The notes under the pieces: generated by a model | What the model saw: the letters and a program-made list of their open reading frames with translations, nothing else | Database searches by the model: none | Told to the model about the DNA's origin: nothing | Source of the DNA: a virus | Length of the DNA stretch: 28,824 bases | Strand: one strand, 5' to 3' | Virus record (IMG/VR): IMGVR_UViG_3300029922_000249 | Span: 1 to 28,824 of that record | Shown: positions 23,471 through 28,824 of the stretch, in pieces | How the letters are laid out: the number at the start of each line of letters is the position of its first letter | Position numbering within the stretch: position 1 is the stretch's first letter | Program-made: the position numbers and the translations under genes

Positions 23471-23863
23471 TTATTTATCCTCTTCAAAAATATGATTCCC
23501 ACAATCTTTTATCTTTTCAAGTCGAAGGTTAGTTCCAGCGACACTAACCATGTTCCCACAGACGCAGCGGCAGTCCCACATCATCGCCCGTCCCTTCTTT
23601 GTTCTACTTTTCCAAAGTACCAGAAGACAACCAAACCTCCGATTCACTAAACTGTATTTTCTTTCAGCCTTAGCTTTTTTTAGTTGTAGTCGAGCGCAAC
23701 CACAGCTTTTAGTTTTCCCTGTTAGTAAATCTTCTTGTCGAATCAGCTTACGCTTTCCACAGCGGCATTGGCATACCCATTTAGAGCGCCCTCTATCCAT
23801 TTCACGATAAAGTGCGACCAAGACCCCAAACTGTTTGCTTGTTAAATCCTTAGCTTCTCGCAT
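23471..23863 (-). CDS. Small zinc-ribbon protein related to the HNH neighbour but lacking the nuclease domain
   Basis: The 130-aa basic protein holds two modules of the type found at the front of many phage HNH endonucleases. Module one is at residues 5-56 (DLTSKQFGVLVAL, W-V-C-Q-C-R-C-G, KTKSCGC). Module two is at 70-122 (SLVNRRFGCLLVLWKS, W-D-C-R-C-V-C-G). In module two the usual closing SCGC is reduced to DCGN (C121 only), so its metal site may be incomplete. No HNH, GIY-YIG or AP2 domain follows. The gene starts 6 bp after the stop of the HNH gene and ends directly against the GTG of the 1261-aa tail gene. It may be a degenerate endonuclease, a split-off DNA-binding half, or a small regulator. 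The reading frame is intact and closely packed, so it is probably expressed. Confidence 0.75.
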   Translation of the reverse strand: MREAKDLTSKQFGVLVALYREMDRGRSKWVCQCRCGKRKLIRQEDLLTGKTKSCGCARLQLKKAKAERKYSLVNRRFGCLLVLWKSRTKKGRAMMWDCRCVCGNMVSVAGTNLRLEKIKDCGNHIFEEDK

Positions 23864-23869
23864 CTCTAC

Positions 23870-24607
23870 CTAGAAGACAATAGTCGGCAAACTGTTTTGG
23901 TGTTGGTGAATTTTTCCAACGTGGGCTAAGAACTTTTCTTTACTAACGTTTCGTTTCATCCAATTACATTCCCAACAACAAGAAACCACGTTACTTGAGA
24001 TATACCCCCGCTCATTATCTAGTCGGTCGATACCACTATATGTAAAATCACCATAGTTAAGAGGCTTAGAGTGACAATTAGAAGGAGCTTCACCACAATA
24101 AAAACAGGAGCCAAGGAACAGCCTGTCTACTTCGGCCTCTGTCAGCCCCCATTCTAACCCTCGTTTTTTAGCTTTTTGTTTGTAGCAACCTACAACCGAA
24201 TTCCTCGATGACACACCATAGGAAAGTCGAACCGCAGCCGCAGCTTTTCTTTGACTGACAGCCCGTAAACACCCACAGCTTTGAGTACCCCCACTACTAA
24301 GTTGGTGCCCAATAACAATAGGGGTGTTTCCACAATCGCAAAGACATTCCCATTTAGAGTTTCCCGTCGTATTAGTAGAGTGCCATCTTATAACTATCAG
24401 CTTACCAAAGCGCTGACCTACTAAGTCTACGCGACGATGTAAACACCCGCAACTTTTGGTAGCGTACAATTCCGTCCTTCTTATCACTTTCTCAACCCCG
24501 CAATCACAATGAACCAACCATGTAGGAATGCCGCTGAGGGTACCCACCCTTTTCAAAACTACTAACTTACCGAAACGCTGTCCACTTATATCTATAAACT
24601 TACCCAT
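23870..24607 (-). CDS. HNH homing-type endonuclease with two N-terminal zinc-ribbon modules
   Basis: The 245-aa protein has two zinc-ribbon modules: residues 5-55 (DISGQRFGKLVVL, H-C-D-C-G, KSCGC) and 60-113 (DLVGQRFGKLIVI, W-E-C-L-C-D-C-G, QSCGC). An HNH domain follows at about 165-220: CFYCG (C168, C171), SGIDRLDNERGYISSNVVSC with D194, then C211-x-x-CN (C214, N215) and MK. This arrangement is typical of free-standing phage homing endonucleases that nick or cut a sequence near their insertion site. I chose the ATG at 24607 because GGAG lies 9 bp upstream and the first zinc module begins at once. A TTG or ATG near 24664 would add 19 unrelated residues and cover the divergent intergenic region. 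It is the first gene of the leftward block. Confidence 0.9.
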   Translation of the reverse strand: MGKFIDISGQRFGKLVVLKRVGTLSGIPTWLVHCDCGVEKVIRRTELYATKSCGCLHRRVDLVGQRFGKLIVIRWHSTNTTGNSKWECLCDCGNTPIVIGHQLSSGGTQSCGCLRAVSQRKAAAAVRLSYGVSSRNSVVGCYKQKAKKRGLEWGLTEAEVDRLFLGSCFYCGEAPSNCHSKPLNYGDFTYSGIDRLDNERGYISSNVVSCCWECNWMKRNVSKEKFLAHVGKIHQHQNSLPTIVF

Positions 24608-24702
24608 CGTCTTACTCTCCTTACTTATATATTGAGCAGTTGGTAAATCGGTGGTCGTGAACAAATACTATGACTTTCAATCTCATTAAGTGAGAGGATT
24701 TG
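24608..24702. promoter_or_regulatory. Divergent intergenic region between the leftward tail block and the rightward fibre block
   Basis: These 95 bp are the only place where two transcription units diverge, so both blocks may be started here. A/T-rich hexamers occur in both directions: TACTAT at 24666-24671 for the rightward genes, and a TATATA-type stretch at 24626-24632 for the leftward genes. Neither has a convincing -35 at 16-18 bp, so a phage-specific promoter or a start elsewhere is possible. Confidence 0.4.
24681..24695 (+). promoter_or_regulatory. Short inverted repeat overlapping the ribosome binding site of the 198-aa gene
   Basis: TCTCA and TGAGA form 5-bp arms around a 5-base loop. 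The right arm overlaps the GAGAGG ribosome binding site that lies 5 bp before the ATG at 24703. In RNA this could form a weak hairpin masking the site; in DNA it could be a small operator. It is short enough to arise by chance. Confidence 0.25.
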
Positions 24703-25308: not shown

Positions 25309-26667
25309 ATGTCAGTTAACTTAGTACAAACCGCATCAATCACTAAAAACACATCCACGAGTGTGGTGCTCAATTTCCCGTCCGTAACCAAGGCCGGGAA
25401 TTTGTTAGTTATGATTGCGACTACGTATTCGATGCCCGGTGGCATGTCACAATATGTTACTGGGGTGTCTGACTCAGGATATAACAACTGGAATGCCGTC
25501 CAACAGCAATTTGCTAAAGACACCCACTCTCCAAGTGGCACCGGAAGTATCTGTTTGTGGGCTGTTGGAAACGCAAACCCAGTCTCAAGCATCGTCGTAA
25601 ACACTATACCAACCTCATTACTCCAATCTGTTTTTATCTATGAGTTTAGCGGCATTCAACCCACCCCTCTTCCTATTGACATTTCCACCATTGGTGCCAA
25701 CTCCTTAGGCGCTAAAATTCACACCACTGACGTTGGTCGGTTAATTTTGGGTGGTGCGCTTGCTACTTATAGTGGAATCATCTCAGGAGCACAATCACCA
25801 GCTACAGGTATGCACGTAGGTGTGGCGGGTTCCTACACACTAAAAGGAACTAATTACCATAATTATGTTGGGGATGGGTACTATCAGTCGGGCACCAGCG
25901 GCGATAACCTTCTCTACTTTTCAGGTGTATCAGGGACAAACCCAGCCTCTATCCAATCAATTGTAGTTGCATTCATTCAACAAAATGAGGGTGTGGAGGT
26001 TCTAACTCTGGCTGAGATATTGACGGTGACTTCCCCCAACCCCGGTAACTTCAGCACCGCGCATGGACTTAACACCACCCCTGCCCTAATCGAAGTCATC
26101 CCCACATCATCCGGAGCGTTTTGGGCTCAAAACCCAGCGTATGATGGAACTAATATCAACCTCGTAGCATCGGACGAGGGATTGACCGCCCTTGTTGCCG
26201 TGTATGTGTCTTCATTTAGCTCTGATGTAACTGTCCCCATCACTTCTCTCTCTGTCACCTCCCCTGATCCGGGTAACTTCACAGTGGCACACAATCTTGG
26301 AGTTACTCCATCCTTAATTGAAATTCTTCCCACGTCAAGTGGGGCTATTTGGGCACAAACACAGGTTTATGACGACACACTTATTTATCTTTCAGCCTCT
26401 GATATAGGGGTGACCGCAGAGGTTTCTGTCTTCCCGCCAGCTTCACCTTTGAATATTGCGATTCCAGCTACGACATTATTTGTGGACTCACCGGCAGGGG
26501 GTAATTTCACTGTGACACATGGGCTTGGCAATGTTCCCTCAAGAATCGAAATCCTCTCCACTTCAAACGGGGCGATGTGGGCTCAGACACCAGCTTTCGA
26601 TGGAACCTATATATACCTTGTGGCTTCGGATGAAGCTGTGACTGCACAAATTTCTGTTTACGCTTAG
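25309..26667 (+). CDS. Tail-fibre-like protein with three C-terminal repeats
   Basis: The 452-aa protein has an N-terminal beta-sandwich-like half (residues 1-225). It contains VVLNFPSVTKAGNLLVMIA and a VSDSGYNNW turn, a pattern I associate with phage and bacterial surface proteins in which 'a-G-N-L-L-V' precedes a 'v-s-D-s-x-G-N' strand. The C-terminal half holds three closely related modules at about 236-299, 313-375 and 389-452. Each runs from V-x-S-P-x-x-G-N-F-T, through A-H-G-L-G...P-S-x-I-E-I and T-S-S-G-A-x-W-A-Q, to L-V-A-S-D-x-x-V-T-A. No signal peptide is present, in contrast to the next two genes. AAAGG lies just upstream of the ATG. A repeated receptor-contact or stalk unit of a fibre is the likely role. 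Confidence 0.75.
   Translation: MSVNLVQTASITKNTSTSVVLNFPSVTKAGNLLVMIATTYSMPGGMSQYVTGVSDSGYNNWNAVQQQFAKDTHSPSGTGSICLWAVGNANPVSSIVVNTIPTSLLQSVFIYEFSGIQPTPLPIDISTIGANSLGAKIHTTDVGRLILGGALATYSGIISGAQSPATGMHVGVAGSYTLKGTNYHNYVGDGYYQSGTSGDNLLYFSGVSGTNPASIQSIVVAFIQQNEGVEVLTLAEILTVTSPNPGNFSTAHGLNTTPALIEVIPTSSGAFWAQNPAYDGTNINLVASDEGLTALVAVYVSSFSSDVTVPITSLSVTSPDPGNFTVAHNLGVTPSLIEILPTSSGAIWAQTQVYDDTLIYLSASDIGVTAEVSVFPPASPLNIAIPATTLFVDSPAGGNFTVTHGLGNVPSRIEILSTSNGAMWAQTPAFDGTYIYLVASDEAVTAQISVYA
26014..26664 (+). repeat. Three tandem protein modules (about 64 aa, spaced 76-77 aa)
   Basis: The modules lie at about 26014-26205, 26245-26433 and 26473-26664. The landmarks GNF(S/T), (A/T)H-x-L, TS(S/N)GA-x-WAQ and ASD recur at equal spacing in all three. 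The DNA is clearly related but not identical, so the duplication has had time to diverge. Confidence 0.85.
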
Positions 26668-26677
26668 GGAGAATTGA

Positions 26678-27760
26678 ATGAAAACACTCACCGTTTGGAT
26701 TGGACTGCTGCTTAGCTCATTTTGTGCTGCGGCTCAACAGCCGCAATCTCCGACAACCCCTATTTACAAAGTTAACGCAGAGACCGCCAATGGGGTGGCT
26801 CCCGGTTATGCTCCCTGTGCTGATGCCTCCATATCATGCTCTAGCACAACCGGCCTAAACTTATACCTCGGTCCGGGAACAGTGAACTGCAACGGTGTGA
26901 TGGTCAGTTATGCTGGGGGAACTCTTGCATTAAACGCAAGTACAACCAACTACATTTATTTAAACACAGCAAGTAGCTGTGTCCCGGCCAACAAAACGAC
27001 AGTGTTCACTACCAGTGATATTCCCCTTGCTGTTGTGGTAACAAATGGTAGTCAGGTTACTGCCACCTGTGGCTCTGGAAGCCAACCTTGTATTACTGAT
27101 GACCGAACCATATTTACTTACATTCAACCCTCGACCTCATTCGTAATCAACTCCTTTACAGGGTGTAGTGGCACCCTCGAAATTGGTGCAACAGCAACTA
27201 ACCCAACGTGCTCTGCTACCTACTCTTCCACACCAACAAGTGCAAGCATTACGAACACCGACAGTGTCGATTCTCCTCTAGTGTTGACCACCCCATTTAC
27301 CAGTGGCACCATTGTTGGAAGTTTCCACCACACAGCAGCGGCGACGACTACAATCACCCTCACCGCAATCAGTGGAGTAACAACAAAAACCGCTACCCTA
27401 ACTTACACTTGGAACCCTCGCATTTTTGCTGGCATCGGTTCTGCGGGGGCGAGTTCTTCAGTTACAGCATCAGGAACAACTGCGGTTCTTAGTACATCTG
27501 ATGTTTTATCAAGCGCAGGTTTAGGCACAGAAGTTGTAGGTGAGACGTTTTCAGCCCTTCAGCCAAGTGGACAGTCTATATATTTACTTCTTACAGGAAA
27601 CACCCATACTTTTGTTGACGTTGGAACAGGGTTTCCTTTAGTGTTTAACGCTCCGACCACTGTAACTTTCGTTAATCAAAACGGTTCCACTGTAACCATG
27701 TACCTTTACCAGAGCACTAATCTGCTCTATGGAACTTATACCCCTAAGGTGACCAGCTAA
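26678..27760 (+). CDS. Secreted fibre-like protein with a Sec signal peptide and phage-type Ig domain
   Basis: The 360-aa protein starts with a textbook signal peptide: MK, a hydrophobic core (LTVWIGLLLSSF) and an A-A-A cut site before QQ near residue 19/20. The mature part has eight cysteines (47, 54, 71, 101, 131, 138, 163, 178), an even number mostly in close pairs, as expected for disulfides outside the cytoplasm. Residues about 155-345 resemble an Ig-like module common in phage tail fibres: EIGATATNPTCSATYSSTPT, then TLTYTWNPRIFAGIG and a late IYLLL strand. GGGAG lies 6 bp before the ATG. Its stop overlaps the next start by 1 bp. A signal peptide is odd for a virion protein. It might be exported to the cell surface, or the element may be a prophage whose fibre genes have been taken over by the host. 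Confidence 0.82.
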   Translation: MKTLTVWIGLLLSSFCAAAQQPQSPTTPIYKVNAETANGVAPGYAPCADASISCSSTTGLNLYLGPGTVNCNGVMVSYAGGTLALNASTTNYIYLNTASSCVPANKTTVFTTSDIPLAVVVTNGSQVTATCGSGSQPCITDDRTIFTYIQPSTSFVINSFTGCSGTLEIGATATNPTCSATYSSTPTSASITNTDSVDSPLVLTTPFTSGTIVGSFHHTAAATTTITLTAISGVTTKTATLTYTWNPRIFAGIGSAGASSSVTASGTTAVLSTSDVLSSAGLGTEVVGETFSALQPSGQSIYLLLTGNTHTFVDVGTGFPLVFNAPTTVTFVNQNGSTVTMYLYQSTNLLYGTYTPKVTS

Positions 27761-28824
27761 TGAAAAAACTTGCCTCTATCTTTGTTGCCCTTGTTCTTTC
27801 GCTCCTCGGAGTTGTTGTAGTAGGGGCACAGGTATCTGCTCCCCAAATCCCTGTTTCAGGAAATCTAGGCTCTGGCGGCGTGTTTCCGCTGTTCAATTCT
27901 GGCACTATCTCATTCACTGATGCCAGCCACACCATGACTTACCCTGAGACAAGCGCAAGTTTCATCAAATTGACTAGCTCAGTCACCTTGACCGCCACCC
28001 GCAATCTAGTTGCTCCCCTAACCCGTGGGTTTACTTTCACTATTGAGAACAACACAACCGGAGGTCAGTCAATTCTAGTCACCGGATCATCGGGGTCAGG
28101 GGTGACTATTCCCAACGGGCAGACTGTCGTGGTTGTTTGCGACGGGACAAATTACGTGCAAGCCGGAGCAAGTGGCGGCGGTAGCGGCATCACACAACTA
28201 ACTGGTGATGTAACTGCTGGACCGGGCTCAGGATCACAAGCTGCAACGTTACCAACAGTTAACAGTAACGTTGGAACGTGTGGTGACGCGACTCATGTTG
28301 GTCAGGTCACTCTCAATGCAAAAGGACTTGCAACTGCTTGCACTCCCGTGTCCATTACGGCAGGTACTCCTGTCAAGGTTAATGGTACTAATGTTGGAGG
28401 TTCAGCTTCCAACTTCAACAACACCACGCCATCCGCACCGGGTGGTGATGTGCCTGTAATTTTTCAAACCGATGGCTCGGGTAATGCTAGTGGATATGTC
28501 CCCGCCAGTGCGGTCGGGTTGTCTCTTCCAGCCAACACAAATTTTCTTAGTGCAGGCGATTCGAGAAACCTAATCTCGTCATCCTGCATCACTTCGACTG
28601 TAGACCGAGGCTCTATTACTTCAGGATCGGTCACAAGTGGAATCGCAACATTTCAGACTATCAACGGATACGGCTTCGCCAGTGGACCGTCAGGATATGT
28701 CGGAAGCATCTTAAGGCTGTCTGGATTCACAGGTTCCTACACCGCGTTGAATGGTCAGTTATTCCAGTTCACATCGGCCAATGGAACAACGCTGGTTGGC
28801 CCAGTGACGGGAGTTCCTGATGGT
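27760..28824 (+). CDS. Fibre-like protein with a Sec signal peptide (3' end missing)
   Basis: The frame opens at an ATG that overlaps the previous stop by one base (TAATG) and stays open for 355 codons to the window edge; I checked each codon. The first residues (MKKLASIFVALVLSLLGVVV) form a clear Sec signal peptide with a likely cut after VGA or VSA. Residues about 146-200 contain the phrase LTGDVTAGPGSGSQAATLP, then VGTCGDATHVGQVTLNAKGL and ATAC, which I know from many phage tail-fibre and host-surface proteins ('V-G-T-x-G-x-A-T-x-V-x-Q-x-T-V-D-A-K-G'). The rest is Gly/Ser/Thr-rich beta sequence. Its length is unknown because the end is outside the window. Coupled translation with the 360-aa gene suggests that both act in the same surface structure. 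Confidence 0.85.
   Translation, partial: MKKLASIFVALVLSLLGVVVVGAQVSAPQIPVSGNLGSGGVFPLFNSGTISFTDASHTMTYPETSASFIKLTSSVTLTATRNLVAPLTRGFTFTIENNTTGGQSILVTGSSGSGVTIPNGQTVVVVCDGTNYVQAGASGGGSGITQLTGDVTAGPGSGSQAATLPTVNSNVGTCGDATHVGQVTLNAKGLATACTPVSITAGTPVKVNGTNVGGSASNFNNTTPSAPGGDVPVIFQTDGSGNASGYVPASAVGLSLPANTNFLSAGDSRNLISSSCITSTVDRGSITSGSVTSGIATFQTINGYGFASGPSGYVGSILRLSGFTGSYTALNGQLFQFTSANGTTLVGPVTGVPDG

Follow-up and report, generated by a model that had tools for sequence, protein, structure and literature searches.

Tailed-phage virions are taken to assemble in the reducing cytoplasm of the host, and the T7 gp17-type tail fibre (PHROGs 1640 and 5510) is a leaderless protein that follows this route of cytoplasmic assembly. 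The coat proteins of filamentous phages are virion proteins exported via a cleaved leader, but these are extruding ssDNA phages and their coat proteins are not tailed-phage fibres. The phage tail proteins PblA and PblB of Streptococcus mitis phage SM1 are reported on the host cell surface, although they are not known to carry a signal peptide and leave the cell by way of lysis. Lambda Lom, like other exported moron proteins, is encoded by a leadered gene in the tail-fibre region, but it is an outer-membrane protein and not a fibre. In the open-licence literature that we searched, we found no account of tailed-phage fibres that carry signal peptides.

Here we describe two adjacent genes, P0001 and P0002, at the right end of a 28.8-kb virus record (IMG/VR record IMGVR_UViG_3300029922_000249, positions 1 to 28,824; this whole stretch of DNA is hereafter the window). 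They recall Lom in combining a leader with a place in the tail-fibre region, PblA and PblB in that phage tail proteins would be found outside the cytoplasm, filamentous coat proteins in the predicted cleavage of a leader, and the gp17-type fibre in lying, in related contigs, after internal virion genes. We conclude with high confidence that both genes encode phage fibre proteins that would be exported and disulfide-bonded.

Similar proteins are encoded by the cultured Tunturi phages. Tunturi_1 gp12, gp13, gp14 and gp17, and Tunturi_4 gp111, gp113 and gp114, are tail-region proteins of Acidobacteriota phages which resemble P0001 and P0002 in having leaders and numerous cysteines in even number (8 to 32 in the mature proteins, all even), but they are mostly unrelated to them in sequence, a short stretch of P0002 alone matching Tunturi_4. 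The small Tunturi_1 gp16 has one cysteine, and the fibres of Tunturi_3 have no leader and few cysteines. Those relatives of Tunturi_1 gp17 that are readable to their start (L111, L112, L117/L118, L119 and L120) all combine a leader with an even cysteine count, and a viral-contig scan with Tunturi_4 gp114 produced no new locus. Leaders did not come up in a term search of the main text of the Tunturi paper. The annotated start of Tunturi_4 gp111 lies at 80433, and translation from an in-frame TTG 357 bases further upstream yields a protein with a leader (L016 16288-19383, corresponding to PP885687 80076-83171); the start chosen in the deposited record probably cuts the leader off.

Two leadered genes at the right end of the window

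The window is 99.997% identical to positions 625-29448 of the 73.7-kb IMG/VR contig G001, and its right end carries four plus-strand genes in the order P0004, P0003, P0001 and P0002. P0004 (24700-25299, 199 aa) and P0003 (25309-26667, 452 aa, one cysteine) are leaderless; P0003 found no match in the phage records searched with it, and its C-terminus consists of three repeats of ~76 aa (SPDPGNFTVAHNLG...LVASDE, window 26041-26664). Two neighbouring minus-strand ORFs at 23471-24664 match the same profile region of HNH family phrog_374, and are perhaps a homing endonuclease and its duplicated or broken copy.

P0001 (26678-27760, plus strand) encodes a leadered fibre-like protein of 360 aa, and is preceded by a putative ribosome-binding site, GGGAGAA. 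Its stop overlaps the ATG of P0002 (TAATG), the second leadered fibre-like gene (27760-28824, plus strand), which runs off the contig end with the 5' 355 of its 957 codons inside the window and has its full length of 957 aa in G001. An ORF check showed that a preliminary description, made from the letters of this DNA, had placed both genes correctly in coordinates, frame and strand.

That description had read strong signal peptides at the start of both genes and proposed that they be checked with a predictor. Both leaders are called by our score, a home-made heuristic built on n-region charge, h-region hydropathy and the -3/-1 rule, by which 12 of 12 classical E. coli leaders reach at least 6.8; P0001 scores 7.16 and P0002 9.07. 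Judged by heuristic, shuffles and controls, each protein opens with a tripartite leader that ends in a -3/-1 cleavage motif. The predicted Sec/SPase-I-type leader of P0001, also seen in its homologues, has 19 residues (MKTLTVWIGLLLSSFCAAA, followed by QQ; 26678-26734, plus strand) with the predicted cut between AAA and QQ, and that of P0002, of the same type and conserved in position, has 23 (MKKLASIFVALVLSLLGVVVVGA, followed by QV; 27760-27828, plus strand), cut between VGA and QV. Shuffled versions of the first 40 residues matched the real score in 4 of 2000 trials for P0001 and 1 of 2000 for P0002, and convincing leaders occur in the 73.7 kb of G001 on these two proteins only.

Among 175 ORFs of at least 150 aa from a small set of five control phages (T7, P22, Mu, lambda and crAss001), five exceed the cut-off of 6.3. 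Their position and annotation identify them as lambda Lom and Rz, a Mu SAR endolysin, and crAss001 lysis-region and band-7 proteins; no tail fibre or spike is among them, and those tail fibres and spikes of the five phages that were checked show no leader. Chance was rejected as the source of the leaders on scores, shuffles and control phages. Neither a lipobox nor a twin arginine was seen by eye in P0001 or P0002, and a lipoprotein leader and a Tat leader were rejected on these grounds.

Fibre modules, leaders and cysteines among homologues

The earlier view that the bodies of these proteins look like tail-fibre modules is supported for the C-terminal 210 residues of P0001 and the N-terminal domain of P0002. 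The P0001 module (residues 151-360; 27128-27757, plus strand), delimited by homologue alignment, is all-beta, its AF2 model has pLDDT > 90 over most of its length, and its Foldseek matches in BFVD include a phage tail fibre (E 2e-9), a tail protein and a baseplate wedge. In the leaderless homologue of G009 (locus L054) the module is preceded by the N-terminus of phrog_1640 tail proteins, a tail-fibre anchor, at a locus equivalent to that of the leadered genes. Here the T7 gp17-type N-terminal domain is joined to the P0001 module, whereas P0001 and other relatives have a leader and cysteines in its stead; this virion-attachment N-terminus was found in 1 of 19 records, and is absent from the window's phage.

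The N-terminal fibre domain of P0002 (27829-28170, plus strand), defined by homologue alignment, is common to Roseobacter phage tail fibres. Tail fibre gp50 of Roseobacter phage CRP-902 matches it at 37% identity over residues 45-151 but, unlike P0002, has no leader. The AF2 model of P0002 is poor (mean pLDDT 39.8) except at about residues 50-137. A GDS motif at 28555-28563 (plus strand; a motif without Pfam match) is followed by HLTDQG at residue 532 of the full-length protein (L003 6083-8953), which points to a possible SGNH-type hydrolase-like domain. Searches of PHROGs and Pfam with P0001 and P0002 returned nothing useful, and sequence and fold searches of the PDB gave only weak or generic Ig-like matches.

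Homologues of P0001 were sought with its C-terminal 210 residues, the leader being left out, and the search recovered 17 distinct homologues on 19 contigs. A leader is present in 14 of the 17 and absent from L054, L056 and L061, which have plausible ribosome-binding sites. A hidden leader upstream of these three starts was considered and rejected, none being found in any frame; the N-terminal domains of L061 and L056 matched no phage record. With the P0002 N-terminal domain as query, 21 loci were found, and in nearly all the homologues the leader stops directly before the conserved QIPAPQIPLTGN domain start. L076-L079 miss the heuristic's cleavage rule yet start with a leader-like MKRILGFFLMMSGVMQG, and the 233-aa ORF of L070 begins within the P0002-type domain and looks like a broken frame. 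The preliminary description had named absence of the leader from all related phages as the result that would count against it; both families are instead predominantly leadered, and the leaders appear in homologues recovered by leader-free searches. They diverge more than the domains behind them (median identity 33% versus 60%), as expected if their physical character and not their sequence is under selection. The P0001-family tree requires three changes of leader state, well-supported branches making at least two of these unavoidable, and leaderless forms appear to have arisen two or three times, at least twice. At L007 506-5618, several leadered genes stand in a row upstream of a P0002-like gene, with the P0001 homologue last, which indicates that a leadered cassette can expand.

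Mature P0001 contains exactly eight cysteines (47, 54, 71, 101, 131, 138, 163 and 178), the number given by the preliminary description, and a ninth, Cys16, sits in the leader. The pair Cys163 and Cys178 (27164-27211, plus strand) is found in most leadered homologues, whereas the leaderless ones have G and F at these positions. In all 14 leadered homologues the mature cysteines are even in number, from 4 to 10; L054, L056 and L061 together have none in 1,125 residues, with ~20 expected at the leadered density. Leaderless L056, with no cysteines, and leadered L059, with four, can be aligned over most of their length, and L061 and L063 present a like contrast. Across all phage loci fetched, counts are even in 41 of 45 leadered proteins with cysteines (binomial p 9e-9) and in 134 of 294 leaderless proteins, such parity p-values being guides only because the proteins are related and not independent samples. 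Four leadered proteins have odd counts; two look like false leader calls, while P0002, with 17, truly departs from the rule.

Exported bacterial proteins are known to favour even numbers of cysteines (PMC7678975). The even counts, together with the lack of cysteines where the leader is absent, agree with the earlier suggestion that P0001 is adapted to an oxidising compartment. Leader and cysteines seem to be linked in evolution, gained or lost together, and this linkage argues strongly for export with disulfide formation, which we consider very probable.

Probable hosts and chromosomal copies

The virus group consists of soil phages that probably infect Acidobacteria/Acidobacteriota. For the window's own virus we infer an Acidobacteriota host from four lines, namely the short match to Tunturi_4, an Edaphobacter MAG locus, a prophage remnant in the Acidobacteriota genome G261 and a stand-alone gene in G301. 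The Edaphobacter MAG was the single match of a GTDB scan with the P0002 domain, and its locus has integrase, small terminase and tRNA-Glu genes; a GTDB scan with the P0001 module gave no match. The G261 remnant holds a small terminase, three leadered genes that include both families, and an endolysin. Its P0001 homologue (L102 644-2014, corresponding to G261:C1:5999644-6001014) is leadered and lacks the module pair; its two mature cysteines again fit the even-number rule.

The Acidobacteriota chromosome G301 carries a stand-alone leadered P0002-like gene (L103 6305-10030, corresponding to G301:C28:949307-953029), encoding 1241 aa with 26 cysteines and having no recognisable phage genes beside it. 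The protein is 49% identical to that of the G261 prophage remnant, and the gene is possibly domesticated. Exchange between phage fibres and host proteins, which the preliminary description had raised, gains limited support from this one gene.

Fate of the exported proteins

We propose that P0001 and P0002, as fibre proteins of receptor-binding or depolymerase type, would be exported by the host Sec machinery, that signal peptidase I would cut off the leader, and that folding and disulfide formation of the mature proteins would follow in the periplasm. Inspection of both by eye showed no lipobox, sortase motif, C-terminal barrel, transmembrane segment or other anchor, so the default fate after Sec would be soluble and periplasmic, and the cell-surface structure suggested earlier gains no support from the sequences. 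The proteins would wait there in soluble form until lysis breaks the envelope, whereupon they would meet the particles and complete the tail, a late assembly outside the cytoplasm. We assign this whole chain, from export through to the joining of virions at lysis, a probability of about 0.5, and put forward its virion step tentatively.

A phage needs receptor-binding proteins, and the leadered genes are the sole visible long fibre candidates in G008, where PHROGs identify terminase and portal, and in G012, judged by gene order, which speaks for their joining virions once exported. The contigs are incomplete and many of their structural genes lack a family match, so that another, leaderless receptor-binding protein may be hidden among them; P0003 and P0004 could be fibres of the window's own phage.

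A less probable reading, which we nonetheless take seriously, is that the proteins are exported but never enter virions, being depolymerases or esterases secreted to remove the host's exopolysaccharide ahead of release, or decoys that occupy receptors for superinfection exclusion or to keep progeny off debris. The absence of any other long fibre or spike gene in G008 and G012 argues against such a role, as do the leaderless homologues at an equivalent locus, one with a virion anchor, and the annotation of several Tunturi homologues as tail or virion proteins. It does accord with the leaders and even cysteines, with the GDS and HLTDQG motifs of P0002, with the beta-helix, chitobiase C-terminal and Fn3-associated domains of Tunturi_1 gp17, with the stand-alone gene of G301, and with most leadered P0001 forms having no recognised virion anchor. 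It is improbable that the genes serve lysogenic conversion, modifying the lysogen's surface or adhesion and simply travelling beside tail genes as Lom does, since they belong to a rightward late-type run in which leaderless fibre-like genes immediately precede them, and their bodies are fibre modules, not barrels, with no anchor seen by eye, even though remnant cassettes occur in Acidobacteriota chromosomes and Lom matches in position and leader. Leaders that go unused, as hydrophobic N-terminal segments for virion attachment or as products of chance, are most unlikely, for although the calls come from the heuristic, cleavage-site position is conserved while sequence is not, the even-cysteine bias is confined to leadered proteins, and cysteines are absent where the leader is.

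Export followed by attachment at lysis is our preferred reading, and we rate it as slightly short of an even prospect that there is a class of tailed phages, probably with Acidobacteriota as hosts, whose receptor-binding fibres are exported by Sec, acquire periplasmic disulfides and attach only at lysis. For annotation, Tunturi_4 gp111 is a warning that the choice of start site can strip the leader from a tail gene. That leader and cysteines are gained or lost jointly amounts to a natural experiment, and with the Tunturi phages in culture the question of export can be tested now. Should export and oxidation of the fibres come first, phages of this kind would have a second assembly compartment, their fibres could use disulfide-stabilised folds, and the Sec machinery and disulfide-forming enzymes of the host would become phage host factors.
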